From a virus: a DNA stretch of 39,938 nt. The notes beneath the pieces are model-generated. The model was given only the letters and a program-made list of their open reading frames with translations. It did no database searches and was not told where the DNA came from. Shown one piece after another: positions 3,628 to 38,141 of this stretch. Position numbers and translations under genes: made by a program. Positions within the stretch are counted from its first letter, which is position 1, and each line of letters begins with the position of its first letter. The stretch is taken from IMG/VR virus record IMGVR_UViG_3300046543_000064, positions 1 to 39,938 of that record; one strand, written 5' to 3'.

Positions 3628-3870
3628 ATGAGCGATCGACTCATGACTGCGGAGGAAATCGAGCGGATGACCGGCTGGAAGCGCTTCTCGAAACAGGTTC
3701 AATGGTTTTCCGAGCAGTTCGGCGTGAAGGTCGCCACGTGCAGCGATGGCAGTCCCGTCATGACCTGGGCGAACTTCAACGCACTGAACGCGCGGCGCCT
3801 TGGATTATCATCATCCGATCCTGCACCTAAAAAGCGCCTCGTCCTCGTATCTGACAGCAAACAAAAATGA
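3628..3870 (+). CDS. DUF4224-family protein, 80 aa, integrase partner
   Basis: The N-terminus LMTAEEIERMTGWKRFSKQV and the following WFSEQFGVKV segment match DUF4224 proteins, small helix-turn-helix-like proteins often encoded directly before phage integrases. A role as excisionase or recombination directionality factor is plausible from position but not proven. The stop overlaps the integrase ATG (ATGA 3867-3870), so the two are probably translated together. Confidence 0.8.
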   Translation: MSDRLMTAEEIERMTGWKRFSKQVQWFSEQFGVKVATCSDGSPVMTWANFNALNARRLGLSSSDPAPKKRLVLVSDSKQK

Positions 3871-4928
3871 ACGCACGCCGCCGAATCATCGATAACGGTC
3901 TTCCAAAACGCGTCTATCCCCGGAGCGGAAGCTGGTACTGGTTCCCGAAGAATGGTCCGTGGATCAAGCTCTGCCGGATCGAGGATGGCGAGCGAAAGAT
4001 GCATGAGCGTCTCGCCGCGGAGATGAAGAAGCGCGAGGGGTCGAAGGGGACCGGGAATATCCCCGCCTTCGTCGACATGTACATTGCCGCCAAGAAAGGC
4101 GAGCACCGGGAGAAAGGCTGGTCGAACTACGGCAACCCGGTGAAGGCAGACTTCGCCGATGGTGATCTAGAAGATGCCGATACTGCCGCCTGCAAACGCT
4201 TCCTTCGCAACAACTGGTCCACGAAGCTGTCGATGCAGCGCGCAATGCGGGCGTTCCTGAGCGGCTTCTTCCAGTGGTGCAAGGAAGAGGGTTACTACGA
4301 TGCGCCGAACCCGATCACCGGCATGCGCCTTGTTTCTCCCAAGCCGCGTCAGGTGTACATCACGAACGAACACTTCGAGGCCATCCGCGCGCAGCTCGCC
4401 AGCCAGCCGATGATCTTGTGCATGGTCGATCTGTGCTATCTGACCTTGCAGCGGTCCACTGAAATCCGCGACCTGCGCTGGCGAAAGACCGACGAGAAGA
4501 CGGCTAACTGGGTTGACCGGGATAACGGCGTGATCCACTTCGTGCCGTCGAAGACTCGCGAGTCCAGCGGAATCGCCATTGATTGGCCGATAACGCCTGA
4601 GATTGAGGCGGTGCTGGAGCGAGCTCGAACCACCGGCAAGGTCAAATCCCCGTACGTGATCCACACGCCGAAGGGTGGCCAATGGGTCAACACTCATGCT
4701 CTGAAGATGTGGCACAAGGCGTGCCGAGCGGCTGGCCTGGCGAGTTACAAATACACGATCAAAGACATCCGTGCGAAGGCGATGACCGATGCCAAATCGC
4801 AAGGATACGAAATGGATGCCCTGATGGTCGCCGCGGCGCACAGCGACATTGCGACGACGAAGGTCTACATGAAAGACCGTAAAACGCCGCTCAGCAATAT
4901 CCATCTGAAGTTACCGAAGAGCGCCTGA
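3867..4928 (+). CDS. int: Tyrosine-family integrase
   Basis: This 353-residue site-specific recombinase integrates and excises the prophage. An N-terminal arm-binding and core-binding part (residues 1-160) precedes the catalytic domain. Visible catalytic residues are Arg196 (LQRSTEIRDL), Lys229 (SKTRESSG), Lys299/Arg302 (IKDIRAKA, with Lys where most have His), His325 (AAAHSDIATT) and the nucleophile Tyr334 (KVYMKDR). The length and order are normal for the family, so it looks intact. It is the last gene of the rightward operon, and attP-like repeats begin at its stop codon. Repression of the early promoter would silence it in the lysogen. Confidence 0.95.
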   Translation: MNARRRIIDNGLPKRVYPRSGSWYWFPKNGPWIKLCRIEDGERKMHERLAAEMKKREGSKGTGNIPAFVDMYIAAKKGEHREKGWSNYGNPVKADFADGDLEDADTAACKRFLRNNWSTKLSMQRAMRAFLSGFFQWCKEEGYYDAPNPITGMRLVSPKPRQVYITNEHFEAIRAQLASQPMILCMVDLCYLTLQRSTEIRDLRWRKTDEKTANWVDRDNGVIHFVPSKTRESSGIAIDWPITPEIEAVLERARTTGKVKSPYVIHTPKGGQWVNTHALKMWHKACRAAGLASYKYTIKDIRAKAMTDAKSQGYEMDALMVAAAHSDIATTKVYMKDRKTPLSNIHLKLPKSA

Positions 4929-8948: not shown

Positions 8949-9230
8949 TCACGGCGCACCGAGTAACGATGCGTCTTGAACCTGCGCTCGGAACGCAGCC
9001 TTTTCTGCTTCGCCGGCATCGCGTACTGCCTGAGTCAGCGGACTCGGCTCGCGTATGACTTCTTCTCGCGGCGCCACACGCTGTTTCTGGTCGACCATCT
9101 GCAAGGTTTCAAGCGCGCCGAACAATCCGAACAGTTTCTTTTCTTCTTCCTCGCGAGCTGTCAAAAGGTCGAAAAGCTTTGCTTTCGATTGCGCGATTTG
9201 CGTGCTGATGAATTCGATGTCTTTGTTCAT
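8949..9230 (-). CDS. Hypothetical coiled-coil protein, 93 aa
   Basis: The first half is a charged helix (TQIAQSKAKLFDLLTAREEE) likely to form a coiled coil, and the second half is Gln/Glu/Arg-rich with AVRDAGEAEKAAFRAQV. There is no membrane segment or known motif. It lies between the pectate-lyase-like spike and the holin. It may be a fibre chaperone or minor structural protein, with nothing specific to decide. Confidence 0.55.
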   Translation of the reverse strand: MNKDIEFISTQIAQSKAKLFDLLTAREEEEKKLFGLFGALETLQMVDQKQRVAPREEVIREPSPLTQAVRDAGEAEKAAFRAQVQDASLLGAP

Positions 9231-9233
9231 GGT

Positions 9234-10781
9234 TTAGCCTGCGATCCAGACGCCTGTAGTTAGGTTGAAGTGAGCGGCCCGCGTCGAAGGGCTGGACCAG
9301 ATTTCGAGAAAGCCCGAAGTCGAGTTGTATTGCATGAAGCCGAAATTTCCGAACCCTAGACGCTGATCGCGAAGATGGATTGCGCATTGATTCGAGCCGG
9401 CGCCATATGCAGCGTTGGCGGTCGCCCCGACATCAAGCCCGATACCTCCCGGAGTGATGCCGCTGCCGTCCGTTGAAGCGCCGTATTTGAAGTTGATGAG
9501 CGTTGCCGGCTGCGCCTGGATATCGATCCCGATGTGATCGACAGAGAACGTCTTCATGTAAATACCGGTGCGCCACTGATTGGCGACGCCGCCGCTGGCA
9601 ATGCCATGCGCGAAGGTGTTCTTGTTCGGACCAAACGAGATATTCCACATGCCGGCCGAGAAAGGCGCGGTCGTCGGAAACGCATCGTTGTATGCGTAGT
9701 CGCTGCCAGAGAAATTGAACGTGTCGACTTCAATCGAAGTCATCGTGATGTTATGGGTCTGCGCGAACACTTCCGCGTAAAGTCCCCAAATCGCGCCAGT
9801 CGTGATCCCATGCGAGGATGCCGCGAGGCCGACCGATTGAGCCGCGCCCGTTGTCGACTGATCCTCAAGATAGAAGTAGCCGCCATACAGCCAGCCAGTC
9901 CCGCCCGGAAGCCGCTTGTGCGTCACATAGAGCGACGAGATCAGGTGCGCGGGATCGTCGCCGACGACGGACTTGTCCACGCGCTGAATGTAGGCGGTCG
10001 ATGTTACGCCGTCAGTTGTCGGGTTGGCATTCGTGCCGTGCCAGATGCTGAAGCGTTTGCCGACGTTCGGCGTCGAGTTGAAACCCATCGTTGCGGCCTG
10101 ATACGGAATCGAGCCGCTACCGAGAAGTGAGGCGCCCTGTGCGAAATCCCATGCGATCGTACCGAGGCCAGCCGTGACCGCGCTATTGACGACAGATGAG
10201 GCAGGGACGAGGATTTCCCATACTGCGCCGGTAGGAACTGCATTCGATGCCGCCTGGAACGCCGCGGAATCATCCGTTACGCCATCGCAGCGCGCACCGT
10301 AGTCCCGAATGCTGCGAACATCGTTATCGCGGTTGTACAGCCTAGAGCCGGTCGCGATCGACGCATCGGTTACCGTTCCAGCGCTCGGAGCGCCGATAAG
10401 ACGGGATGCGCCGCCGCGGACATATACCCTTTGCACTCCTACCGGGATAGGAGAAATGAAAGACAGACCGTAACCGATCAGCGAATATTGGTCCGGTCCC
10501 TGATACGACGCATCGAAGAAGACTTCGATGTTGTTGACCGAGTTGTACAGATTCGCCAGCGTCAGAGCGAGTGAGACGCCAGGCGTGAAGTCGACGTTGG
10601 CAACGAACTGTTCCGTCGCGGGGCTGATAGCCAACAGCGCGATTTCATCCTGCGTGACGTACCGGCTATCCAATACCGAGATCGGAAGCCCGCGCGTGAC
10701 GCCGTTTGCGTTCTGCCAGACTGGCAGCTTGTCATCCGAACTTACGGTAGACGTGACGCACAAATCCCCGATGGTGGACAT
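9234..10781 (-). CDS. Tailspike with pectate-lyase-like beta-helix
   Basis: This 515-residue protein has an N-terminal anchor-like region (MSTIGDLCVTSTVSSDDKLP, then GVTRGLPISVLDSRYV) resembling the small protein at 29844. Around residues 150-190 it has SIRDYGARCDGVTDDSAAFQ, the signature that opens Pectate_lyase_3-type right-handed beta-helices in phage tailspikes. The rest is beta-rich and Gly/Asn/Ser-rich. It probably binds and may depolymerise surface polysaccharide. The start has AAGGA upstream. It belongs to a group of consecutive receptor-binding genes. Confidence 0.82.
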   Translation of the reverse strand: MSTIGDLCVTSTVSSDDKLPVWQNANGVTRGLPISVLDSRYVTQDEIALLAISPATEQFVANVDFTPGVSLALTLANLYNSVNNIEVFFDASYQGPDQYSLIGYGLSFISPIPVGVQRVYVRGGASRLIGAPSAGTVTDASIATGSRLYNRDNDVRSIRDYGARCDGVTDDSAAFQAASNAVPTGAVWEILVPASSVVNSAVTAGLGTIAWDFAQGASLLGSGSIPYQAATMGFNSTPNVGKRFSIWHGTNANPTTDGVTSTAYIQRVDKSVVGDDPAHLISSLYVTHKRLPGGTGWLYGGYFYLEDQSTTGAAQSVGLAASSHGITTGAIWGLYAEVFAQTHNITMTSIEVDTFNFSGSDYAYNDAFPTTAPFSAGMWNISFGPNKNTFAHGIASGGVANQWRTGIYMKTFSVDHIGIDIQAQPATLINFKYGASTDGSGITPGGIGLDVGATANAAYGAGSNQCAIHLRDQRLGFGNFGFMQYNSTSGFLEIWSSPSTRAAHFNLTTGVWIAG

Positions 10782-12098: not shown

Positions 12099-13415
12099 TT
12101 ACGTCTGGTTGAAGAGCATGATGCCGGCCATCTCGGGGTTCGTGACGCTGACGCCGTAGAATGCGTCGACCCGGTACAGAGACTTGTACGTTTCGATGTG
12201 CGCCTGCTTGGTCATCACAATTTCGATGCCCTGTTCCGTCGAACCGCGCATCACTGCGAGGCCCTGATCGGACGGCACAGCCAAGCGACCCGGCAGGATT
12301 TCGATAGCTTCCTTCTTCCAGAAGCAGTTGACCGGAGCCGATACCGTGTTGAGCCAGGTGATCGCAGCGCTTGCAGCCGGGGTTGCAGTCACGTTCTGAT
12401 ACGCGAGTTCTGCATCCGTTCCGCCTTGGCCAGAGATGATGGCCGGAGCGATCGTTACCGTACCCGTACCGCCTGCGCCCGAGACGATGGCGACGATACG
12501 GAACGTCTTGAGCTGGCCGGTATCGACTTTGGTAATTGGGTGAACGTTGTTGACGCCCGCGATCGTGAAGGCATCACCGATCTTGACCGTTCCGGACGTG
12601 ACCGTGATAGCCAAGTTCTGGATGCGGTTGTCGACGTTCGACTGAAGCGGGCCGCTCGGCGATGCTGCGAGAGCCTTCGGCGTGGTGAACTGGTTCGCAC
12701 CATTGACCGTGACCGTCACGCCAGCCGCAGCCGTGAGACGGGCGATGTAGTCAGCCTTCAGAACGCGCTCGAAGCCTGCGACCTGACGGCCTACCGTTGC
12801 CATTTCGAAAGCGTTCGCGGCCTTCTGGCCTTCGACCAGATAAGCACGGCTGGCAAGGTTGCCGGCCATTGCGTTGTAATCGCGCGAACCGAAGACCGAA
12901 TAACGGCCGTCGTAGTCGATGCCCGATTCGTTCATCAGCGCATCAGCTTGGGCGATGTCGTCGAAGCCGGTCGCGGCGACCGTGCGCTTCACCACCAGCG
13001 TGCCGAGCGTCGAAGCGGCGTTCACGACTGCGAGGTTGATGTCGGAGGCGATCTTTTGTTTCGCTGCGTCACCCAGGCGGTTTTCTTGCAGAGCGTCGCG
13101 CAGTTCGGTTGCGTCCATCGTCCACGGCGAGCTGCGGATCGTGTCGATCGCGGCGGGGATGGTCAACTGCGTCTTGCCGACGAAGTTTGCGGTCTGGTCG
13201 AGGCCCGAGAACGAACGTGCGATGTACGGCATCGGACGGCGGATCATGTCGCCGGCGCGAGCCATCATGGTTTGATCGTTCTGGAAAACGGTGACGGCTT
13301 TCGACATGACCAGTTGGTCATTGAAGCCTTCAAGAAGACGCTCGAAAGCGACGCGCTCTTCCTTGCTGAAGGAATTGGCGGTCGACAGAAATGGTGCTGA
13401 CGGAGGATTGCTCAT
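12099..13415 (-). CDS. Major capsid (coat) protein, P22 gp5 type
   Basis: The 438-residue product resembles the P22 coat family, an HK97 fold with an inserted domain. N-terminal helices are followed by DQTANFVGKTQLTIPAAI and ELRDALQENRLGDAAKQKIA, then ASTLGTLVVKRTVAATGFDD, with the characteristic FTIAGVNNVHPITKVDTGQL segment near residue 300. The frame is open upstream, but ATG 13413-13415 starts MSNPPSAPFLST behind an AGGA sequence. It follows the scaffold gene after a 205-bp gap with two hairpins, and a GC hairpin follows it. Confidence 0.88.
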   Translation of the reverse strand: MSNPPSAPFLSTANSFSKEERVAFERLLEGFNDQLVMSKAVTVFQNDQTMMARAGDMIRRPMPYIARSFSGLDQTANFVGKTQLTIPAAIDTIRSSPWTMDATELRDALQENRLGDAAKQKIASDINLAVVNAASTLGTLVVKRTVAATGFDDIAQADALMNESGIDYDGRYSVFGSRDYNAMAGNLASRAYLVEGQKAANAFEMATVGRQVAGFERVLKADYIARLTAAAGVTVTVNGANQFTTPKALAASPSGPLQSNVDNRIQNLAITVTSGTVKIGDAFTIAGVNNVHPITKVDTGQLKTFRIVAIVSGAGGTGTVTIAPAIISGQGGTDAELAYQNVTATPAASAAITWLNTVSAPVNCFWKKEAIEILPGRLAVPSDQGLAVMRGSTEQGIEIVMTKQAHIETYKSLYRVDAFYGVSVTNPEMAGIMLFNQT

Positions 13416-13531
13416 GGCAGTAGTCCTAAATAAAGAGACGAAAAAGAATGACCAAATGGCCACTGATTTCGCATCCAGCAGGACTAACGCAGGCAATGCC
13501 GCGCCGATGGGGCTGAGATACGGTGAAGCGG

Positions 13532-13620: not shown

Positions 13621-14463
13621 TTACTTCGCCATCTGCTTCTTGTACGCAACCACTTTGCTGTAGTCCCCTGTCCGGGCCGCTTCGTCCCGGAGCTTTTCAA
13701 GCTGCGAGTTCGACGAATTGAAGCCTGTCCCGCGCTCGGACGTGATGCGCGCTTCCGGCGCCGGCCGGGTGGTTTTCTTCGTAGCCAAGGAGATTTCCAG
13801 TTTCGCGACTGCAACGGTGAATTTAACCGGATCGGTGATCTTCGCGAGGTCCATCAACCGAGCGGGCGACTTCGAGAGCGCATAGACCAAGACGGCAGGG
13901 TCATCCGCCCCGCGCATCAGCAGACCGGCTTGCGTCTGATTCAGGATCGTGCCGACTTCGGATTCGGCTTCGTCGAAGTCTTCCACGCCGAGCGACTTCT
14001 TGCGTTCGGCATAAGATTTCTTGAAATTGTCGACTTCTTCCTGTTCCTTGCGCTGCGCGTCGAGTTGAGCGCGGTCTTTGGCTTCCTGCGCGGACTTCTG
14101 CTCCATCCACTTGTCGTATGCTTCGGAGAACCGCGTCTCGTCGTAGTCATACTGGTCGAGCGTAGGCTTTGCGGCGAGCGCCTGGACGGGCGGCGGCAAC
14201 TTTGCGCGCAGCTCGTCGTTCTGCTTCTGGAGTTCGCGCTTCTCGCGAAGAATCTCCTTGTGGCTCTTGCGCAACTCCGCGACCCACTTGGGCGCCGGTT
14301 GGCCCTTCAGTGACGGGGGATCACCTTCAGGTTGCTCGGCGCCCTCCGCAGGCTCTTGCTCTTGGGACTCCTGATCTTCGTCGTCAAACAAAGCGGGAAC
14401 CGCGATTTCGGTAGGCTGTTCCTGCTCAAGTTCGGTTTGCTGCGCGTCGAGTTCTTCGTTCAT
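13621..14463 (-). CDS. Scaffolding protein
   Basis: This 280-residue, highly charged and helical protein has an acidic N-terminus (EQEQPTEIAVPALFDDEDQE), Pro/Gln/Glu linkers, a long coiled-coil part (KSHKEILREKRELQKQNDEL and on to about residue 155), and a basic C-terminal end (DYSKVVAYKKQMAK), as expected for a P22-like scaffold that binds coat through its C-terminus. It sits directly before coat. The SD sequence AAAGGTGAG overlaps the left arm of an inverted repeat (14471-14525) shared with the opposite-strand cassette. Confidence 0.85.
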   Translation of the reverse strand: MNEELDAQQTELEQEQPTEIAVPALFDDEDQESQEQEPAEGAEQPEGDPPSLKGQPAPKWVAELRKSHKEILREKRELQKQNDELRAKLPPPVQALAAKPTLDQYDYDETRFSEAYDKWMEQKSAQEAKDRAQLDAQRKEQEEVDNFKKSYAERKKSLGVEDFDEAESEVGTILNQTQAGLLMRGADDPAVLVYALSKSPARLMDLAKITDPVKFTVAVAKLEISLATKKTTRPAPEARITSERGTGFNSSNSQLEKLRDEAARTGDYSKVVAYKKQMAK

Positions 14464-14470
14464 TCACTCA

Positions 14471-14525
14471 CCTTTAGGTGGAAAAATGCAATTCGGCAAG
14501 TATACGACAAATCCACCTAGTAAGG
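14471..14525. promoter_or_regulatory. Operator-like inverted repeat between scaffold and the opposite-strand cassette
   Basis: TAGGTGG (14475-14481) pairs with CCACCTA (14513-14519), and CCTT (14471-14474) with AAGG (14522-14525) further out. The arms flank an A/T-rich centre between divergent genes. The left arm contains the scaffold ribosome-binding site; the right arm lies 27 bp before the ribbon-helix-helix gene. Such proteins commonly bind repeats in their own control region, so autoregulation is a reasonable inference. No clear sigma70 promoter is visible. Confidence 0.5.
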
Positions 14526-14552
14526 ATGACGATATACGTCTACCATGCACAC

Positions 14553-14690
14553 ATGGACCGATTTCAAATTTACCTGCCCGAGCCGATGCTGAAGCGACTA
14601 CGCGAGATTGCCGATAAAGAAGGCTATTCTGTAGCCGAGGTGATAAGGCGCATGGTTCAGAAACAACTCGACGAAAAGGAACAGAAGTGA
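14553..14690 (+). CDS. Ribbon-helix-helix (Arc/CopG-type) regulator, 45 aa
   Basis: The product MDRFQIYLPEPMLKRLREIA, then DKEGYSVAEVIRRMVQKQL, has the strand-helix-helix pattern of small DNA-binding dimers: alternating residues FQIYL for the beta ribbon and the helix pair after the EGYS turn. An in-frame ATG 27 bases earlier is possible; neither start has a strong ribosome-binding site. It is the first gene of a three-gene cassette on the strand opposite to the surrounding late genes, and probably regulates it through the adjacent inverted repeat. Confidence 0.8.
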   Translation: MDRFQIYLPEPMLKRLREIADKEGYSVAEVIRRMVQKQLDEKEQK

Positions 14691-14911
14691 AACTGATCGC
14701 AATCGTGCTGCTCTCACTTGCCGTGCTGCGAGTGCTTTACCTGATGCGTCATTCGGTCATGGATGCGATCGGGTTCGTGATCCTGTTCCCATTCGTGCTG
14801 GCCGATGACATCCGGCGTAATGGCCGTGAAGTGCTCAAGACTATTTTCGGATGGAGCGCTGCGATTGGCGTTCTGTTCCTCATCATCACCGTTTTTCAAA
14901 TCTCATTCTGA
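14687..14911 (+). CDS. Two-helix membrane protein, 74 aa
   Basis: A GTG start overlaps the previous stop (GTGA 14687-14690). Helix one is IAIVLLSLAVLRVLYLM, followed by a second hydrophobic stretch AIGFVILFPFVLA, a basic loop DDIRRNGREVLK and a C-terminal helix WSAAIGVLFLIITVFQI. No family is recognised. Coupling between a DNA-binding regulator and an oxygenase suggests a shared function in the prophage or at the envelope. Confidence 0.65.
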   Translation: MKLIAIVLLSLAVLRVLYLMRHSVMDAIGFVILFPFVLADDIRRNGREVLKTIFGWSAAIGVLFLIITVFQISF

Positions 14912-15498
14912 TGCGTAATTTCCACGTAATTAAAGACGGCATGGACGTAAGCGCCCTCGCACTCGCAATCTCGATGGACCCTGATCTGTGGACGGCTGAC
15001 ACGTTCTTGCGCAACTATCCACAGGGACCATTCGGCGATACAGACACGATCATGCTGCGCTTCCCGGAGATTCAGACCGGCATGAGTGAGGAAGAGATCG
15101 ATCTGTACAAGGCAAACAAGCTTGCCGGGTACGATCAGCACGAGTCGATAGCATGGCCGGCATGGTCGAAGCTCACGCAGGCACATGAGTTCGTGTTCAA
15201 TCTGGCGCGGTTCTCTTTGGCGACGCGCGTCGGCCGGGTGATGATCAACCGGATTCGCCCAGGCGGCAGGATCTTTCGACATGCCGACACGCCCGAGCAC
15301 GTCAGATATTGGCGCCGCTTTCACCTTGTGATTCAGGGCCAGCCAGGCGCGGTCATCTACTGCGGCAACGGCGAAGGCGACGAGACGCTTCAGATGCTGA
15401 CGGGGCGCCTATTCTGGTTCAGAAATGAACTTGAACACGAAGTGCGCAATGAATCATCCGTCGATCGCATCTCGATGGTGATCGATCTGCACGTCTAA
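14911..15498 (+). CDS. Aspartyl/asparaginyl beta-hydroxylase-like 2-oxoglutarate/Fe(II) oxygenase, 195 aa
   Basis: The C-terminal half has the double-stranded beta-helix metal site: His124-Ala-Asp126 (IFRHADTPEH), distal His176 (NELEHEVRN) and Arg186 (VDRISMVIDL) ten residues later, which binds 2-oxoglutarate. INRIRPGGRI before the HxD and RRFHLVIQG after it match the aspartyl-hydroxylase family. Such enzymes hydroxylate Asp or Asn in proteins; the phage substrate is unknown. The ATG overlaps the upstream stop (TGATG). The 3' end overlaps the convergent terminase gene by four bases. All active-site residues are present, so it is probably functional. Confidence 0.85.
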   Translation: MRNFHVIKDGMDVSALALAISMDPDLWTADTFLRNYPQGPFGDTDTIMLRFPEIQTGMSEEEIDLYKANKLAGYDQHESIAWPAWSKLTQAHEFVFNLARFSLATRVGRVMINRIRPGGRIFRHADTPEHVRYWRRFHLVIQGQPGAVIYCGNGEGDETLQMLTGRLFWFRNELEHEVRNESSVDRISMVIDLHV

Positions 15499-16769
15499 AC
15501 CTTGGCCCAGTGATTCACGGTCGGAATGATGCGGACGTTTCTCGCCATTTCGGCCGTGTGACGTTTCCGCTCGGATACGTTCTTGAAGTGCTCCATTGCG
15601 ACGGCGACGTATCGGAAGCTATCCGCGGCGTGCGAATGCTCATCATGCTTCGGATGGCCAGACTTCGCGCGTGTGTAGCGGCGAAGATGCTCGATCAGTT
15701 CGTCGACATCATCTGAATCTGAAAAGAAAGCGTTCTTGAGCGCTGTGCGTGCCTTCTTGATGCCCGGTTCGACGCCGATTTCCGGGACCGTCTCCACCTG
15801 CCAGCCAAGCTTTTGCACGGTCTGTTTCGTCGTTAGACCGGTCTGAACGGATCGCGCATTCCCATCATGCGGCAGCCAGATGACCGAATGCTTCCAGCCG
15901 TTATCCTTCAGCCATTCGCAGTAGTGCTCGATAGCGTAGTTGTTGTCTTCGTGGAAACCTACGACGCGTAGGCCGCTGATGTCCGCCTGCGCGATCGTTA
16001 TCGACATGCTGTCGTTGATGCCCAAGTCGAAAACGGCATGAGTGCCGAGCACAGGATCAGGGAGCAACGGCCGAATCCTGCCTTGCGTGGCTAGTTCGTG
16101 CATCTCGCGGCGATAGATGGCGCCGGACACCGCAGACTTCGGAATGCCTTCCCAGATATGATCGTAGTCGTCTGGATCGTCCGCCATCGACCGTTGCCGC
16201 TCTGCTTCCATTGCGGCATTCCAGAACGGGTTCTTATCCCAGTTGACCTCGATGATTCTGGCGTTGGCGGGGCGTTTCTGGATGAACGTCGTGTAGACCG
16301 GATCGGTATCGAGCTCGGGGTTCATGCTGAACCAAATCTCAGACGTATCTTTCCGGATAGTCGGCAGGAAAAGATCGAGCGAATCTTTCGAGATGGCCTG
16401 TGCTTCCTCGCCCCATGCAATATCGATGTCGTTCAGCGATTTAATCGATGTCGCCGTTTCGTCGCTCAGTCCTCGAAAGATGAACTTGCTGCCGTTTGGA
16501 GCCGTGATTTCCTTCTTCGTGATATTGAAGAAGCCTTCCAGACCGCAGTCTTTGATGCGCTGCTCGATGATTGCCTTGACGGATTCATCGATCGATTCCT
16601 GAATTTCCCGGAAGCACAGAATGCGCAATGGCTCTGCCGCAGCGCGGATCACCAGCGCGGTTGCGCACGCCATTGACTTACCCGAACCGCGTCCACCGTG
16701 AAAAATGGTGTACCGCGGGCCTTGGCTAAGTAGGCATTCGGCCCAATCCGGGAGAGATACTTCGCTCAT
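15495..16769 (-). CDS. terL: Terminase large subunit (PBSX-type)
   Basis: This 424-residue packaging motor cuts and pumps DNA into proheads. The ATPase domain has Walker A GGRGSGKS (25-32), the Walker B region IDIAWGEEAQ with Glu121/122, and the SMNP coupling motif at 149-152. The nuclease domain has acidic residues Asp248 (VFDLG), Asp302 (LPHDGNARS) and Asp383 (HAADSFRY). The start overlaps the portal stop by four bases. Unlike P22, portal is transcribed before terminase. Confidence 0.95.
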   Translation of the reverse strand: MSEVSLPDWAECLLSQGPRYTIFHGGRGSGKSMACATALVIRAAAEPLRILCFREIQESIDESVKAIIEQRIKDCGLEGFFNITKKEITAPNGSKFIFRGLSDETATSIKSLNDIDIAWGEEAQAISKDSLDLFLPTIRKDTSEIWFSMNPELDTDPVYTTFIQKRPANARIIEVNWDKNPFWNAAMEAERQRSMADDPDDYDHIWEGIPKSAVSGAIYRREMHELATQGRIRPLLPDPVLGTHAVFDLGINDSMSITIAQADISGLRVVGFHEDNNYAIEHYCEWLKDNGWKHSVIWLPHDGNARSVQTGLTTKQTVQKLGWQVETVPEIGVEPGIKKARTALKNAFFSDSDDVDELIEHLRRYTRAKSGHPKHDEHSHAADSFRYVAVAMEHFKNVSERKRHTAEMARNVRIIPTVNHWAKV

Positions 16770-19072
16770 TTACCGACCGCGGCATGATTCGACACATGCA
16801 CTGGAGGCGCCACAGGAGCCGGCGCATTGCCTGCGGTCAATTGCTGCGCGGATGGGTCGACTTGCTGCGTGCCGTGCAAAGCATTGATGCCCGGAGATGG
16901 CGCGGCGATACCTGTCGAGATAGCCTGATTCACCTTGGCATCCATCGGTCCTTGCGGTTGGCTCTGGCTCACTTGTCCGGCCTGCGCGTTCACGCGGTTC
17001 TCGATGTTCTGAAGCATGGCCATGATGGTCGACAACTGGCTTGCATTCGTATCCGAGATCGCCTGTGCTGCTTTCGCCTGGTTGAGTTCGGCAGAGGAAA
17101 GCGCTTGCACGGCTGTCGCTTCGCTCTTGGTTGCGTTGGCCTGAGACTCGCGAGCCTGAGCCAGTAGCGCGACCGTCTGAGCGTCGGGCGGTGCGTTTGC
17201 CGCCTGTTGCTGCTCGGCGTCGAGTTCTTGCTGTTCCTCGTCGTTCGGCTTCACGACGCCAGCCTTGACGAGCTGCATCCGCGCGAACTTGGAAAGGTCT
17301 TCCATGCCCTCGCCGTCGAGATTCCGCACGAGCGTCGCGAGCATCAATTGCTGCATCTGCGGATCGGAGATCCCCGGCAGAATCTTCGCGATTGCGTTGA
17401 CGGTCGAATCTTTTCGGCTGTTGAACGCCGGACCAACGTCGACAAACACATCGAGGCCGGGCGTGAACGAGCGCGCAATCGTCGGCTTTCCTTCGTCATC
17501 GATTGCCGGTACGTTGATCGTCGTAGACTCGGGCGAGCCGTCCTCGCCATTGGCAGAGAACTTGCGGCTGTCTTCGGTATAGATGTCGCACGCCATCGAC
17601 AGATAAATCTTGCCGCAGCGCTGCATCGCACGCGACATGTTGTCGACGAAGATGTAGACCTGCATGTCTTGATGCGCCTGCACACGACTTACCAGCGCAT
17701 CGGACGTATTGGAAGTAACTTGGCCAGCTGCCAGATCGCCACCCGTCACATCCATCATGTCGGCAGCGGTAATCTGCACGAGGCCGGCGAGCGCAGGAGG
17801 AACGTCCGGCTGCTTGATGTATCCGACCGGGCCCGAGACCGTCTGCGAGCCATCTGCGCCGGTAATCGGGTTGACCGTCAGGTACGGATTGTTGTCGACC
17901 AGATCGCGCGCCCATGCCAATTCATGCCCAGCGACTTGTTCAGGCACGAAGATTGGCTTCTCGCGCGGCGTGAATGCCGTGATGTCCGCAAGCGTGCTGA
18001 TCTGCATGTTGTACAGGCGCTGCGAGTCCTTCGCGAGCCGTACAGCGCCTTGGAAGCGTTCGATACCATCGATGATCTGGCGAATACCGTAGACAACCAC
18101 AATCGGAATCTCAGAGCCAGCAATGTAGCCGCAGTCCTTCAGAACGCCGCAGCCATCCATGAAGTACTTGCGCACTTTCTTGGTGTTACGCTTTCCGCTG
18201 CGGACCTTGATGTATCCGACCGATCCCAAGTGCTGCTCTTGTTCCTCCGCTGCTTCCCGATCGTCTGCGTCAAGTCCGGCATAGACCTTCTGCTCGACGC
18301 CAGAATGCGGTTCGCGCCAGACCGAATACTTCTCGATCTTCTTCTCGACCTCGTAATACTCGCCGATGTAGACGGAATCATTCGTGAACCAGTCGAATTG
18401 CTTCAGCGAGCGGACCATCTTGAAACTGCTCGGTCGATTTTCGAGCTCCACCGCATCACCGAGATATTCGGTCGTGTACGTGTCCCATGAGATCGGGTTC
18501 AGTACCGTACACCACTTCGCATCCGACTTGTCGAGCTTCCGGCTATCCGGATCGAAGAACACGCTGATGTCTGCATCGTTGATCGGCTCGAAGCAAATGC
18601 GTTGCGGCGTATCGTCGTCGAGTTCGGTTTCCGCGCGATGGTCGTAGTCATTCGTCAGGCGCCACGCTCCAACGCCGCCCGCTACTGCTTCCTCGAATGC
18701 GGACACATACACGTCTTGGGCGCCGCTGTATTGCTCGTCCGACCGGTAGACGATGCGGAGCGCGTCGAGATCATCTTGGCGGCTGTCATCTTCGCTAGAC
18801 CGAAAGTTGACCGTCATCGCATTGGCACGGTATTCAGAGACAATCCGGCGCACGGCTTTCTGCACCTTGTTCACAACGAAGCGCGGCCGGTTGTTGAACT
18901 GCGCGCCTAGGCCACCTTCCCACTGCGCGCCGTCGACGAAGGCAAAGCGCCGGTCTTCGAGTGCTGCGAGTCGAATTTGCTGTTGCGGCCCATAAGCGCG
19001 ATCGAATCGGGCCGTCGCGCGCTCCCAAACCTTCGCCTGTCGTTCTTCTTTGGTCAGAGCCATAGCACCCAT
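16766..19072 (-). CDS. Portal protein, P22 gp1 type
   Basis: This 768-residue protein forms the dodecameric DNA gate of the capsid vertex. The first 600 residues follow the P22 portal family (RFAFVDGAQWEG, RPRFVVNKVQKAVRRIVSEY, VGAWRLTNDY, RLYNMQISTLADITAF, GGDLAAGQVTSNTSDALVSR). The C-terminal Gln/Ala-rich helix (about residues 640-720) matches the portal barrel. Two in-frame ATGs lie three codons apart. Its 5' end overlaps the GNAT-like gene. Confidence 0.88.
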   Translation of the reverse strand: MGAMALTKEERQAKVWERATARFDRAYGPQQQIRLAALEDRRFAFVDGAQWEGGLGAQFNNRPRFVVNKVQKAVRRIVSEYRANAMTVNFRSSEDDSRQDDLDALRIVYRSDEQYSGAQDVYVSAFEEAVAGGVGAWRLTNDYDHRAETELDDDTPQRICFEPINDADISVFFDPDSRKLDKSDAKWCTVLNPISWDTYTTEYLGDAVELENRPSSFKMVRSLKQFDWFTNDSVYIGEYYEVEKKIEKYSVWREPHSGVEQKVYAGLDADDREAAEEQEQHLGSVGYIKVRSGKRNTKKVRKYFMDGCGVLKDCGYIAGSEIPIVVVYGIRQIIDGIERFQGAVRLAKDSQRLYNMQISTLADITAFTPREKPIFVPEQVAGHELAWARDLVDNNPYLTVNPITGADGSQTVSGPVGYIKQPDVPPALAGLVQITAADMMDVTGGDLAAGQVTSNTSDALVSRVQAHQDMQVYIFVDNMSRAMQRCGKIYLSMACDIYTEDSRKFSANGEDGSPESTTINVPAIDDEGKPTIARSFTPGLDVFVDVGPAFNSRKDSTVNAIAKILPGISDPQMQQLMLATLVRNLDGEGMEDLSKFARMQLVKAGVVKPNDEEQQELDAEQQQAANAPPDAQTVALLAQARESQANATKSEATAVQALSSAELNQAKAAQAISDTNASQLSTIMAMLQNIENRVNAQAGQVSQSQPQGPMDAKVNQAISTGIAAPSPGINALHGTQQVDPSAQQLTAGNAPAPVAPPVHVSNHAAVGK

Positions 19073-19512
19073 TTCCGCTCAAAAGGTTCGAAACCCATTC
19101 CAGCAAAGAAATCACCGCATGGGAATGCCAGCTTTTCGCCTGCCATCCAGCATTTCACGCCGCGCCTAACCAGCTCTGCGCGAGTTGCCGCAAAGAGCGC
19201 TTTCCCATGCTCAAGGCCGCGTCGCGTCGGTTCGACATAAAAGATGTCGCCGATTCCTTCCATGCATCCGCCATAGTGGATGCTCGGACGAACGAAAGCG
19301 ACGAAGTAGGCGACGATCTGGCCCTCAAGCCGCCCGATCATCATCATTAGCTGGTCGGCATCCTGCATCGCGCGATAGAGAGGAACATTCGGCTCTAGCT
19401 CATATCCCATCTGCTTGTGAATGCTGATCTCATCGTAATGCTCGTCCAGCAACGGACGTAGTTCTGCATACACATCCTGAAACTTTTCGACAGAGAAGAC
19501 TGGTGTGTTCAT
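19054..19512 (-). CDS. GNAT-like N-acetyltransferase-fold protein, 152 aa
   Basis: ADQLMMMIGRLEGQIVAYFV, GIGDIFYVEPTRRGLEHGKA and LVRRGVKCWMAGEKL, then FFAGMGFEPFE, follow the GNAT order: substrate strand, the acetyl-CoA loop (TRRGLEHGKAL resembles the R/Q-x-x-G-x-A/G signature) and the C-terminal strand. AGGA precedes ATG 19510-19512. T7-like phages encode GNAT-fold internal virion proteins, so this may be a virion-assembly factor rather than an enzyme; both are possible. It lies between the ejection and portal genes, overlapping portal. Confidence 0.7.
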   Translation of the reverse strand: MNTPVFSVEKFQDVYAELRPLLDEHYDEISIHKQMGYELEPNVPLYRAMQDADQLMMMIGRLEGQIVAYFVAFVRPSIHYGGCMEGIGDIFYVEPTRRGLEHGKALFAATRAELVRRGVKCWMAGEKLAFPCGDFFAGMGFEPFERKWVLWL

Positions 19513-19519
19513 AGTTGTC

Positions 19520-22500
19520 CTAACGGCGACCGTTAAACTGATTTGCGGCTGTGGCGCCGGCCACATACCCCGCTTTCTGCGACAGTTGCTGGATGAACAG
19601 ACGACGGGCCGCGAGCGATTCGTAATTGCGCAATGCTGAGGCCAATAGTTTACCGTTAGAAAGAAGCTTTGCCGCGTTCTCGGTCGTGATCGAGGAAACC
19701 TTTTGCGTGATCGTGCGGTTTAGAGCGCCACTTATTGCGCCAACCACGAGGCCGCCAGCAGCGCCGAACGGTCCCGCAGCAGAGCCAAGAGCGCCGCCGA
19801 TCAGGCTTTGGACTGTGGCATCCTTGAACGCCTCACCGAGATTGCGCCCGAAGCGCTTCGCTGCCCCTTGGTTCTGCGCTGTATCGCTGCCGCCGATCTT
19901 GCCAGTCTTGGCATATGTCGTCGTCTGGTTATGCAAGTCCTGCGCGACGCTGCCGAACTGGCTCGCATCCTCTTTCGACATGAACGGCGAATACTTGTCG
20001 GCCGCACCCTTGAACGTACCACGGTTGAATTCCGTTCCGCCTCGGCTGTTCAGGTTGCGATCCGATACTTCGCTCAGTGCCAGCTCGCGCGCCTTCTGCT
20101 GGCGCAGTGCGATCGCCTTCGAGCGGTCAGCCGCTTCCATGTCCGGCAGCAGCTTGTCGAGCTTGCGCAGATCGGCGGGCGACGATGCGTTGCTCACCAC
20201 GTCTTGAGCCTGCGCGAGCGCCGTCTGGCTCGTTTTCTGCGATTCGATCGAGGCGATGTTCTGCGCGTGCGCGCCGTGCAGTTCCTTGTAGGCCGCCGAT
20301 TGGTTGTCGAGAATGCCCTTGAACTCTTCATGCGCTACCGCATGTTTCTCGCTGGATGCGAGCGCGCGTCGGATGTACTCTTGACCTTCGGCCGGCAGTC
20401 CTGTTAGATCGTTCTTGTTCTGAAGGTGCTTAGCCAATGCTGCCAGCGCGTCGAGCGTCGCATCCGGAACCTTGTCGGCAGGACGAAAGCCGGGCTTCAT
20501 CTGTTCCGCTTTGACGCTGTTGATCGTGTTGATCAGCTTTTCAGCGCTCACTTCGCCAGTTGCCGGGTTTATCGCCCCATTGACACGAGTCTGCAACGCA
20601 GTCATGGCGTCAATAGGACCGCTCGCTTCGGCGAACTTCGCTCTGGCTGCACCGTATTCCGGATAGGCTTGGTCCATCTGTTCGAGTAGCGCCTTCTTTA
20701 CCGCTGTGTAGCGCGTTACCTTGGACGTATCGCCGGCGAGTGAAGCCTTCGAAATCAGACCATCGATACCCTGCTTCGCGTCCAGCAAGCCGCGCCCGGT
20801 TGCCGTAACTGAGCCGTCCGGATTGACCGTAATCGCCGCTTGCTCGCCACGGTCGGCCGCAATGTCGCCAGCCTCGCCAATCGCTTCCTTGAACGTCGGC
20901 CGCTTCGCGAGATTCTTCCACGCATCAGAATCGAACGTCGTCGATGCATTCATTGGCAGGAAGTTATCCGACGCATCCGCGCTTCGTGCCGCTTTCGCCG
21001 CCGCCAACTGTTCGGGCGTGCCAGTGATCTGGTCGAGCGTCGCGGCCGCATCGGCATGCTTCGCCTTCTGCAAGTCCTCGAACACGGTCGAGCCTTGATC
21101 TGCTGCGATCTTCTTGGCGAGTTTGACTGGCGCTTCAAACTGCGGCGCTTGGAGACGATCGGCCACCGGCTTGGCGAGCGGTTGGACTTCGGTCTGCCCT
21201 TGCGCTGCCAGTGCGTCACTACGCTGCGCTGCTGCCTCGCCGGCCTGTTCTGCTGCCTGTGGAGCAGCAGGCGTGCCGGGATTGTTCGGCGCTTCCGCCG
21301 GCATCGAGCCAGGCGCTTTGCCTTTCTGCAGCGCTGCAGCAATCGCCTCGTCATTGTTCGCGCTCGCGTTGGCAGCAACAGACGGATTCGCGTTCGTGTT
21401 CGCCTTTTGCAACGTCGTTACGTTCGCATCGTTCGCCATTTCGGCTGCAGTCGGCGTGTAACCGGGCGTTTGCGACGCAGGAGCCGTTTCGATCTTCGTC
21501 GCCAATTCGTTTGGCGTGTGACCGGTTGCGCTCGCGATGTCGGCCGCGACCTGAGCGTCAGGCGCCGCGCCACTGGCTGCGACCTTCGTCGCTTCAGACG
21601 GAGTACCGCCGAACATCTCTTGCAGGCGTGCGATGCCCTTGGCAACAGTCGGATTCTCGGCGAGAGCAGATACGCCCTTGCCAATGACCTTGCCGACGCC
21701 GAGGCCAGCCGCACCCGCGCCAGCGCCTACAGCCGCATCGCGCGCGACTTCGCCTATTGACTTGTTCTGCGCCACAGCAGGAGCCGCACCAGCGACAGCA
21801 CCGCCAGCGACAGCGCCTGGAAGCGATGCGCCGCCCATCGCGGCATACGGAGCCGCCTCACCGACGAATCCAGCAACCTTGCCAGCCGTGCTGTTGTTCG
21901 TGTCGCGTGCCATCTTGGCGTCGATTTGCTGATGCGCAGCGTTCGCTTGGTTTGCAAAGTCATCTGCGCCCACCAGGCGACCGCCAGCCGAGGCAATGTC
22001 GAGCAGACTGCCTGCGACGCCGCCAACAGCCTTCTCCGCCACGTCTGACAGCGTAGAGCCGTTCTGCGCTGCGGTTGCCGGGTTCTGCGGAGCGGTAGGC
22101 ATTGCGTCAGCCGATACGCCACCGAGCGGATTCCAGCCGCTGCTAGTGTCCTGCGCGGGCGTTTGCTGAGCGGGCATCGTCAGCGTGCCATTGGCGACAC
22201 CGGCCTTGATCGTCGCCAGTTGATCTGGCGTGAGCGTGCCAGTCTGCATTGCTGCGAGCGTTTGCGGGCCGATCGGCTTAGCTGCTGGCGTCGATTGCGC
22301 GCCGGAAACAGGTGGCATACCAGATTGCGGCCCAGAAACTGGAGGCATGCCAGACTGTGGCTTTTGCAACTGGCTCGGATCGATACCGATCTTCGAAGCG
22401 CGCTGCTCTACTGCCTTCATATCTTCAGGAGACAGACGGCCAGCGTTGTAGTCCGCCACGATCTGAGCATTGACGCCAGCACCGGGCGGCGCAGCCTGCG

Positions 22501-24408: not shown

Positions 24409-25098
24409 TTACGTTCCTGTGAAAAGGATTGGGTTACCCGCGTCCGTTGTGCCATAGGTCGGGTTATTCGCGGCAGGCTGTTGCACTGCGTACCGATTGA
24501 TACCCTGAGTGATCGCGCCGATGCCGGAGTTGAACGAGTTCGAGAGCGAGCCAGCCTGAGACGTGGCAGCGTTGGCCGTCTGATTGTTGGCGTTCGTCGC
24601 TGCGCCTTGGAAGGCATTGCTCGATGCCTGAGAGCCGCTGATCGCATTCAAACCGTTGCCCATCAACTGACCATAGCCGGCGAGGCGTTGCGTAATCAGG
24701 CCGTTTAGCGTGTTGATTGACGTATTTCCAAGGATATTGCTCGTATTGGAGCCACGCAACCCGCCCGTCGCTGATGCGTTGGCAAGGATGTTCTCATTCG
24801 CCGTCTGCATGTCGCCATGATACTGCGCGCCTGTCTTGATGCCGTTGATGGCCGCGCCCTGCGGACCCGAACCATTGGCCCCGAGCAGATCCTCGTAACC
24901 CTGCATCCCGGTCTGGCCGGCCTGAAGGTATGGCGAGATTTGCCCCTGCATCGTGTCGTATTGACGCGTTGCCAGCGCAAGATTGCTGCTTGCCGCCTGC
25001 GACTGCGCGTCGGCTGCATCACCGGCAGCGCTCGCGGACATGGCAGAACTAGCCACCCCGCCGACAACGGCCGCCGCTCCTACCGCTGCTGCTACCAT
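24409..25098 (-). CDS. DNA-ejection protein, P22 gp7-like, 229 aa
   Basis: A hydrophobic, Ala/Gly-rich N-terminus (AAAVGAAAVVGGVASSAMSA) precedes RQYDTMQGQISPYLQAGQTG and MQGYEDLLGA, the conserved segment of gp7-type ejection proteins, then repeats rich in Asn/Ser/Ala (NTSNILGNTSINTLNGLITQ). These proteins are ejected and help form the DNA conduit. The next gene starts immediately after its stop. Confidence 0.78.
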   Translation of the reverse strand: MVAAAVGAAAVVGGVASSAMSASAAGDAADAQSQAASSNLALATRQYDTMQGQISPYLQAGQTGMQGYEDLLGANGSGPQGAAINGIKTGAQYHGDMQTANENILANASATGGLRGSNTSNILGNTSINTLNGLITQRLAGYGQLMGNGLNAISGSQASSNAFQGAATNANNQTANAATSQAGSLSNSFNSGIGAITQGINRYAVQQPAANNPTYGTTDAGNPILFTGT

Positions 25099-37021: not shown

Positions 37022-37261
37022 TTATGCAGCTGCGTGTTCAGCTTTTCCGCGTAAGTAAGACCATCCAGCATCTGGACGAACGTCCTCGCAACGAACCGAA
37101 CCTCGCGACTCGCGCTCGATCAAGATGCATAGGTTCGCGTCGAACTTTTGCTTCTTGCTGATCGCCTTGCGGAGATAGCCGATAGAGGTCCCGCAGCGGA
37201 TCGCAAATGCTTCTTGCGCCGGGGGCGGGAGGGAGTTTAGGTATGTGCGGAGCTTTTCCAT
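37022..37261 (-). CDS. Cro/YdaS-like repressor, 79 aa, predicted leaderless
   Basis: The product (MEKLRTYLNSLPPPAQEAFA, then RCGTSIGYLRKAISKKQ, IERESRGSVRCEDVRPDAGW) matches the YdaS/Cro-like family of short helix-turn-helix proteins at phage switches. It is the first leftward gene and should bind the operators shared with the S24 repressor. Its ATG lies eight bases downstream of a perfect -10 TATAAT, so the mRNA probably begins at the ATG. A GTG six codons earlier would lie inside the promoter and is not preferred. Confidence 0.82.
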   Translation of the reverse strand: MEKLRTYLNSLPPPAQEAFAIRCGTSIGYLRKAISKKQKFDANLCILIERESRGSVRCEDVRPDAGWSYLRGKAEHAAA

Positions 37262-37268
37262 GAGTTCG

Positions 37269-37296
37269 ATTATACCCACGGGTAAAACAAAGTCAA
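37269..37296 (-). promoter_or_regulatory. Leftward early promoter with overlapping operator
   Basis: On the minus strand TTGACT (37291-37296) and TATAAT (37269-37274) are 16 bp apart, nearly consensus. The palindrome TACCC-N2-GGGTA (37273-37284) fills the space beside and overlaps the -10, so bound repressor would block RNA polymerase. The predicted start point at 37262-37261 coincides with the Cro-like ATG. This is a clear repressor-controlled early promoter. Confidence 0.88.
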
Positions 37297-37323
37297 TACC
37301 TACGGGGAATTTACCCGCAAGTA
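37273..37323. promoter_or_regulatory. Three repressor operators between cro-like and repressor genes
   Basis: The three sites are TACCCACGGGTA at 37273-37284, TACCTACGGGGA at 37297-37308 (two mismatches) and TACCCGCAAGTA at 37312-37323 (one good half-site). The first covers the leftward -10; the third overlaps the -35 of the repressor promoter. Their graded match suggests ordered binding of repressor and Cro-like protein, as in lambda. Confidence 0.8.
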
Positions 37324-37338
37324 TTTTTAGGTTGCAAT
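37310..37338 (+). promoter_or_regulatory. Weak repressor-maintenance promoter
   Basis: TTTACC (37310-37315) and TGCAAT (37333-37338), 17 bp apart, each match four of six consensus bases. The -35 overlaps operator three. The ATG of the repressor is nine bases after the -10, so the message would be leaderless or nearly so, as for lambda cI. A weak promoter needing activation would fit. Confidence 0.5.
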
Positions 37339-37346
37339 TGCTACCT

Positions 37347-38141
37347 ATGGATAAATACGAAAAGAGAAGGGTCAGGCTGGCGGAAGTGCGCGACCATAAG
37401 TTCCACGGGTCGGCGTCGGACCTGGCGCGCGCGATCGGAAAGGAGCCGTCCTACGTCTCGCGGATGCTCTATCCCGCAGGTAAGGCAGGCAAGAAGCGAA
37501 TAGGCGAAGATATGGTCGATGTGATCGAGACGGCGCTCGGCTGGCCGAAGGGATCGCTCGACGCTGACATATCTGTTGAACAATTGTCCAGTGGCAAAAG
37601 CGCGAATAGAGCAGATAAATTACCGCTATTCAGGGAATCGGTAAGTAAGATGTCATCCGATGATAATACGCAAACGTTATCAGACGAAACGACACCGGCC
37701 ACCCCGATCCGATACGAAGTCGACGCGACCAAATACCGCCGCATCTACGTCATAGGAAAATCACAGGGGGGACTGCCCGCAATACTTTGGAAGGATGGTG
37801 ATACGCCCGTGGGCGCTACAGACGAATACGCAGAGCTGGCAAGCTCTGATCCGCGCGCTTTCATTTGCCCTGTCGTAGGTGATTCGATGTTCCCGCGCTT
37901 TATGCCAGGCGAGTACGTTCTCGTCCAGCCAGGCCGGCCACCAGAGATAGAAGATACCGTCCTAGTCCGCCTCGAAACGGGCGAGACGATGCTCAAGCGC
38001 CTGCTGTCGCGGCGTGACCACCATGTTCGCCTAGGCGCGTGGAACGATCCGACGATCGTCACCTATCGCGAAGACGAGATCACCTGGATGTACAGCGTCG
38101 CGCACGCTGTCCCCGCCTGGATGATCAAGCACCTTACGTAA
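37347..38141 (+). CDS. CI-like prophage repressor, HTH plus S24 peptidase domain
   Basis: The 264-residue product has an N-terminal helix-turn-helix (GSASDLARAIGKEPSYVSRM, residues 21-40) and a C-terminal LexA/S24 domain with Ser180 (VVGDSMFPRF) and Lys217 (GETMLKRLLSR). The 37-residue spacing equals that of LexA Ser119/Lys156. The usual cleavage Ala-Gly or Cys-Gly pair is not seen in the linker; the comparable area reads QGGLPAILW. It should keep both early operons off. There is no ribosome-binding site before the ATG. The frame is open further upstream but crosses the operators, so 37347 is chosen. Confidence 0.88.
   Translation: MDKYEKRRVRLAEVRDHKFHGSASDLARAIGKEPSYVSRMLYPAGKAGKKRIGEDMVDVIETALGWPKGSLDADISVEQLSSGKSANRADKLPLFRESVSKMSSDDNTQTLSDETTPATPIRYEVDATKYRRIYVIGKSQGGLPAILWKDGDTPVGATDEYAELASSDPRAFICPVVGDSMFPRFMPGEYVLVQPGRPPEIEDTVLVRLETGETMLKRLLSRRDHHVRLGAWNDPTIVTYREDEITWMYSVAHAVPAWMIKHLT

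Follow-up and report, generated by a model that had tools for sequence, protein, structure and literature searches.

Why does a temperate phage carry an oxygenase gene antisense to its own late genes? The question is raised by the viral record IMGVR_UViG_3300046543_000064, a temperate P22-like phage whose 39,938 bases are the whole stretch of DNA analyzed here (the window). Its minus-strand late genes are broken, in the gap between TerL and scaffold, by three overlapping plus-strand genes encoding a small putative DNA-binding protein of the ribbon-helix-helix (RHH, CopG/Arc-type) kind (45 aa; 14553-14690), a small membrane protein with a GTG start (74 aa; 14687-14911) and an Fe(II)/2-oxoglutarate (2OG) oxygenase of family PF05118 (Asp_Arg_Hydrox; 195 aa; 14911-15498). 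The coupled unit that a first-pass annotation had described opposite the late genes is in place in every part: each start overlaps the preceding stop, as GTGA between the RHH and membrane genes and as TGATG between the membrane and oxygenase genes. The stop codons of oxygenase and TerL overlap tail to tail. We tentatively propose, with a probability of roughly 0.4, that the oxygenase works as a hydroxylase in the packaging or ejection of DNA, and that its gene was relocated once and is uncoupled here from late transcription.

So that relatives were not selected by the oxygenase itself, viral contigs were searched with the coat protein (identity of at least 83%). At all of the coat-found loci spanning both scaffold and TerL (38/38, some of them near-copies), the oxygenase lies antisense between the two. 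A second set, consisting of 38 distinct cassette sequences, was chosen by the presence of oxygenase, scaffold and TerL; the membrane gene is found in 35/38 of these, the RHH gene in 29/38 and all three genes in 29/38, so that the refuting condition named in the first-pass annotation, relatives in which the three never occur together, does not hold. Three Robbsia-type cassettes (L034, L036 and L095) keep the oxygenase with neither the RHH nor the membrane gene, and extra small genes are inserted in some cassettes. The oxygenase is the constant part of the cassette and the remaining genes are replaceable. Because other cassettes hold different small genes between oxygenase and TerL, this gap appears to be an insertion hot spot. 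At this place, L131 has a plus-strand open reading frame (ORF) of 163 aa whose sequence, read by eye, is HNH-endonuclease-like.

The median pairwise ratio of nonsynonymous to synonymous divergence (dN/dS) within the clade is about 0.10 for the oxygenase, a rough value as synonymous divergence is high (median 1.23), about 0.22 for the membrane gene and about 0.20 for the RHH gene, so the three ORFs are genuine genes rather than artefacts of the antisense strand. Given the retention of the oxygenase in antisense orientation in every coat-found locus, the strong purifying selection on it and its homologues elsewhere, which are in-line late genes, it counts as one of the clade's core genes and not as variable cargo, which is how the cassette had first been regarded. 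The constant presence of the oxygenase, together with the finding of neither a terminator-like site at the oxygenase/TerL junction nor a sigma-70-like match, sets the cassette apart from morons, which are recognized by variable presence and by a promoter and terminator of their own.

The oxygenase matches PF05118 with E=1.4e-10 (41.7 bits; curated cutoff 22.6). Its active site is complete, as had been pointed out from the sequence, and it is conserved among distinct relatives: His124, Asp126 and His176 in 95/95 and Arg186 in 92/95. A structure model built from a 26-sequence alignment predicts a 2OG-oxygenase fold (mean pLDDT 89.5, pTM 0.86). When this model was compared with solved structures, L-proline cis-4-hydroxylase (4p7w, E=3.3e-9) ranked first, followed by a nucleoside-antibiotic hydroxylase and then by prolyl hydroxylases and AspH, with TM-scores of 0.55-0.65 that indicate likeness at the level of the fold only. 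In a profile search, AspH came out on top and the proline 3- and cis-4-hydroxylases were weaker. As the two rankings differ, both a free amino acid and a protein are possible substrates; the enzyme may hydroxylate proteins, as first suggested, but the best structural match is a free-amino-acid enzyme, ranked ahead of AspH. The likeness to 4p7w (TM-score 0.64 by query length) is one of fold, the model of 4p7w having 280 residues against 195 in the window oxygenase, with 18% identity. The oxygenase domain of human AspH (5apa) belongs to the same Pfam family and is a fold match at E=4.4e-7, in which the 2OG-binding Arg and the second metal His align; it differs from the phage enzyme, which is a single 195-aa domain, by an additional TPR domain and, in the alignment, by a Gly at the position of Asp126.

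These comparisons bear on a rather improbable alternative, namely that the substrate of the oxygenase is a free amino acid or another metabolite and that the reaction alters host metabolism or chemistry during infection. The order of the structural matches would suit it, and so would the canonical HxD...H triad, which the phage enzyme has and the aligned human AspH lacks. However, the structural likeness reaches only the level of the fold, and close packing among packaging and ejection genes is atypical of metabolic genes. Other assignments were also considered. LpxO, the lipid A hydroxylase, carries membrane-anchoring helices; the top 19-residue hydropathy of the window oxygenase is 1.10, and no anchor of this kind was found in it. 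A defence-system function was rejected, as PADLOC gave weak matches only (0.0028, to a generic 2OG model). In three host genomes, the phage oxygenase profile matches the prophage copy only; one of the three also has another, separate gene that PF05118 detects. A survey of Burkholderiaceae detected the oxygenase in 14/399 genomes, and those inspected have it in phage-like neighbourhoods.

Outside the clade, each layout seen has the oxygenase reading in the same direction as the late genes around it. In P22-like phages (L146-L167, L046, L047, PfAn1, L170 and the L107 record), it is followed by a gene for a GNAT-type acetyltransferase and by a gp7-like ejection gene (phrog_598). In DC33-like freshwater phages (L173-L205), the order is TerS-TerL-oxygenase-GNAT-small protein-portal, the identities of TerL and portal having been read from the sequences. 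In MW202665, the oxygenase immediately precedes a DNA-ejection gene (phrog_21132), and in Burkholderiaceae prophages (L231-L237) and 80 viral loci the order is endolysin-holin-oxygenase-Gly/Ala-rich ejection-like gene, all on one strand (80/80 of the viral loci). ORF8 of Limnohabitans phage DC33 is a direct relative of the same family and fold (27-32% identity); it lies between TerL and GNAT, in the same orientation as these two and the portal gene, whereas the window gene is antisense and accompanied by the RHH and membrane genes. For both ORF8 and the pelagimyophage core "aspartyl/asparaginyl beta-hydroxylase", the cited papers give annotation only (PMC12195039, PMC7029224), and we liken the PF05118-family genes of pelagimyophages to the window gene by their annotation. 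DC33 (L173-L205, L050) is placed by GenBank taxonomy in the Inoviridae, yet it has TerL-like and portal-like genes of tailed phages.

GNAT homologues lie directly after the oxygenase in most other phages. The window also has a GNAT-type acetyltransferase-like gene (19054-19566, minus strand), located between the ejection gene and the portal, which matches phrog_1249 at E=0.0028 and PF13508 at E=0.0014, the latter under the Pfam cutoff, and which is 47-51% identical to the in-line GNATs by tblastn; in the record of clade member L019, phrog_1249 is matched at 6.7e-12. Among P22-like records, which are related to one another, the phrog_1249 GNAT is present in 12/12 oxygenase-positive and 0/5 oxygenase-negative ones. 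A strict pairing was discarded, since L231-L237 break it; the link between oxygenase and GNAT is strong but not absolute. It is a doubtful thought that hydroxylase and GNAT form a pair that modifies ejection or packaging proteins, or is itself virion-borne, and that has been kept across several unrelated podovirus layouts, the hydroxylase having been split off here to an antisense, separately regulated cassette. Were phage DNA delivery to depend on protein hydroxylation in this way, virion maturation would include a step of a novel type.

In the oxygenase tree, the sequences of the window clade group together in one branch (support 98/100), which points to one relocation. The window coat protein is 61% identical to that of PfAn1 and 34% to that of L047; the window oxygenase is 58-60% identical to the L146 group and about 49% to PfAn1. 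Horizontal transfer of the gene into its present position would be the simplest account. In the history that we propose, a PF05118 hydroxylase of phage lineage would originally have belonged to the late block of podoviruses, where it adjoined genes for DNA ejection or packaging and, as a rule, one for a GNAT. In the ancestor of the Burkholderiaceae P22-like clade, it would have moved once to the TerL-scaffold gap, on the opposite strand, to sit off the late message behind the membrane-protein gene and, in the majority of lineages, also behind that of the RHH regulator. The enzyme would be active as a hydroxylase, and the cassette may have its own promoter near 14500-14550, with expression in lysogens or soon after the start of infection, possibly under control of the RHH protein. 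Its substrate might be a packaging or ejection protein, the best candidate being the product of the P22 gp7-like ejection gene (24409-25098, minus strand), which would undergo modification in the cytoplasm, ahead of assembly; the GNAT protein might be engaged in the same job. The step from gene neighbourhood to substrate is a guess.

Several points weigh against this proposal. For an enzyme that has to act on late proteins, a gene antisense to the late message is an odd arrangement; late transcription presumably reads through the cassette in antisense, because no terminator-like site was found at the oxygenase/TerL junction. Some P22-like relatives have no oxygenase, so it is dispensable for P22-type assembly in general. 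Besides, L231-L237 have no GNAT adjacent to the oxygenase, the ejection-adjacent small genes of DC33 (9070-9393) and L234 (6849-7904) match no ejection family, and proximity to ejection genes may merely mark a spot in late operons that tolerates insertions. Phage oxygenases of PF05118 have been annotated already, with no established role in the literature searched, where no functional study of hydroxylated virion proteins or of a described oxygenase/GNAT pair was found. That they recur next to genes for ejection or packaging, in many cases along with a GNAT, raises a concrete question that is cheap to answer: are virion or ejection proteins hydroxylated or acetylated? The clade also provides a natural experiment in which a late gene has been removed from the late message, so that the timing of expression can be separated from function.

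The membrane protein leads to a different possibility. Its hydropathy peaks at both ends and, in the alignment, a conserved D-x-RRNG-xx-VLK stretch lies between the two hydrophobic ends; no family was matched in Pfam, PHROG or NCBIfam. Proteins with this stretch span 63-114 aa in the window and the L002, L003, L025 and L077 cassettes. By analogy with immI/sieA of P22, the locus could be an immunity or conversion cassette expressed in the lysogen, in which the RHH protein regulates, the membrane protein keeps DNA from related phages from entering at the inner membrane, and the oxygenase helps by modifying a component of the envelope or of the ejection conduit. We consider this the most credible of the alternatives, although still an unlikely one. 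The phage is temperate, and the membrane gene is nearly constant among the distinct cassettes and, among viral contigs, its family is restricted to them. Like immI/sieA, the window has RHH and membrane genes set inside a late operon, in a P22-like phage that is temperate, but immI/sieA insert between genes 16 and 9 and the cassette lies between TerL and scaffold. Furthermore, exclusion genes usually vary among relatives, whereas the cassette holds a constant oxygenase, which is also older and more widespread than the cassette itself, as seen in the other layouts and in the Robbsia-type cassettes devoid of RHH and membrane genes. Family-model and PADLOC searches revealed no homology to superinfection-exclusion (Sie) families, and no ant or SieA homologue was found in the cassette by family models, no direct comparison with SieA having been made. 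The analogy keeps exclusion alive mainly for the membrane protein. The ejection machinery would be the shared target of exclusion and of the packaging or ejection hydroxylase that we favor, and both could be partly true.

As for the control of the cassette, the RHH protein matches PF01402 with E=9e-10 (38.6 bits; cutoff 20.5) and scores 19.5 with the Arc model, just under its cutoff of 20.4; no ribosome site lies directly upstream of its ATG. The first-pass annotation had placed its operator at an inverted repeat (14471-14525) formed by TAGGTGGA (14475-14482) and TCCACCTA (14512-14519). The repeat does exist there (DNA fold z=-3.5), but when 90-nt stretches are drawn at random from the window, 2.4% contain an 8-bp inverted repeat. 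It is intact in the near-identical phages L051, L055 and L108; close relatives (L008, L133 and L009) have changes in the right arm, and in L141 and L131 it is broken. With an arm that decays in close relatives, the repeat is unlikely to work as an operator. An RNA hairpin is conceivable, as the changes in L008, L133 and L009, the three closest, leave G-U pairs, but pair counting found no two-sided change.

Two other motifs are better conserved. A CTCACC-N4-GGTGG element (14466-14481) overlaps the scaffold ribosome-binding site (minus strand AGGTGAG) and, small variations allowed, is present in 37/38 cassettes by the pattern used. The motif AGTATAC (14499-14505; minus strand GTATACT, -10-like), which has a single copy in the window, is likewise present in 37/38 by the pattern used, once as ATTATAC; its distance from where the CTCACC element begins is 30-34 or 42 nt. 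L058, L039, L063, L056 and L030 have a spacing of 42 rather than 32 nt, longer by roughly one turn of the helix. Both motifs are retained in cassettes that lack the RHH gene (L077, L079, L044 and L034), which argues that they are not a private operator of the RHH protein. AGTATAC is probably a promoter element for scaffold, cassette or both; judged from its sequence, GTATACT would suit a -10 box for scaffold, and the minus strand of L132 reads GTATAAT at this place. A third block (TACGTCTAxxAT or TATGCCTATxAT) lies about 8 nt before the RHH ATG in many cassettes and could be the -10 box of the cassette itself, with a leaderless RHH message. A sigma-70 promoter scan gave no match. These data also make it very unlikely that the three genes are independently acquired cargo, with the RHH protein regulating itself at the inverted repeat and dampening scaffold synthesis. 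That account would explain the coupling and frequent co-occurrence of the genes and the overlap of the repeat with the scaffold ribosome site; it is at odds with the poor conservation and modest size of the repeat, with the nine of 38 cassettes that retain the flanking motifs without RHH, and with the core status of the oxygenase.

The divergent neighbour of the cassette is the scaffold gene (13621-14463, minus strand; phrog_648, E=6.1e-40) and the convergent one is TerL (15495-16769, minus strand; PF04466, E=3.8e-33); the coat protein (12099-13496) and the portal (16766-19072) are P22-type. A search at the DNA level found no close relative of the window among GenBank phages. The hosts of cassette carriers include Robbsia andropogonis, Burkholderia turbans and a Paraburkholderia. 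The prophage setting assumed from the start is borne out by an integrase (3867-4928, plus strand) and an S24-type repressor (37245-38141, plus strand). Divergent to the latter lies a YdaS-type gene (PF15943; 37022-37279), probably its Cro-like partner in the immunity switch.
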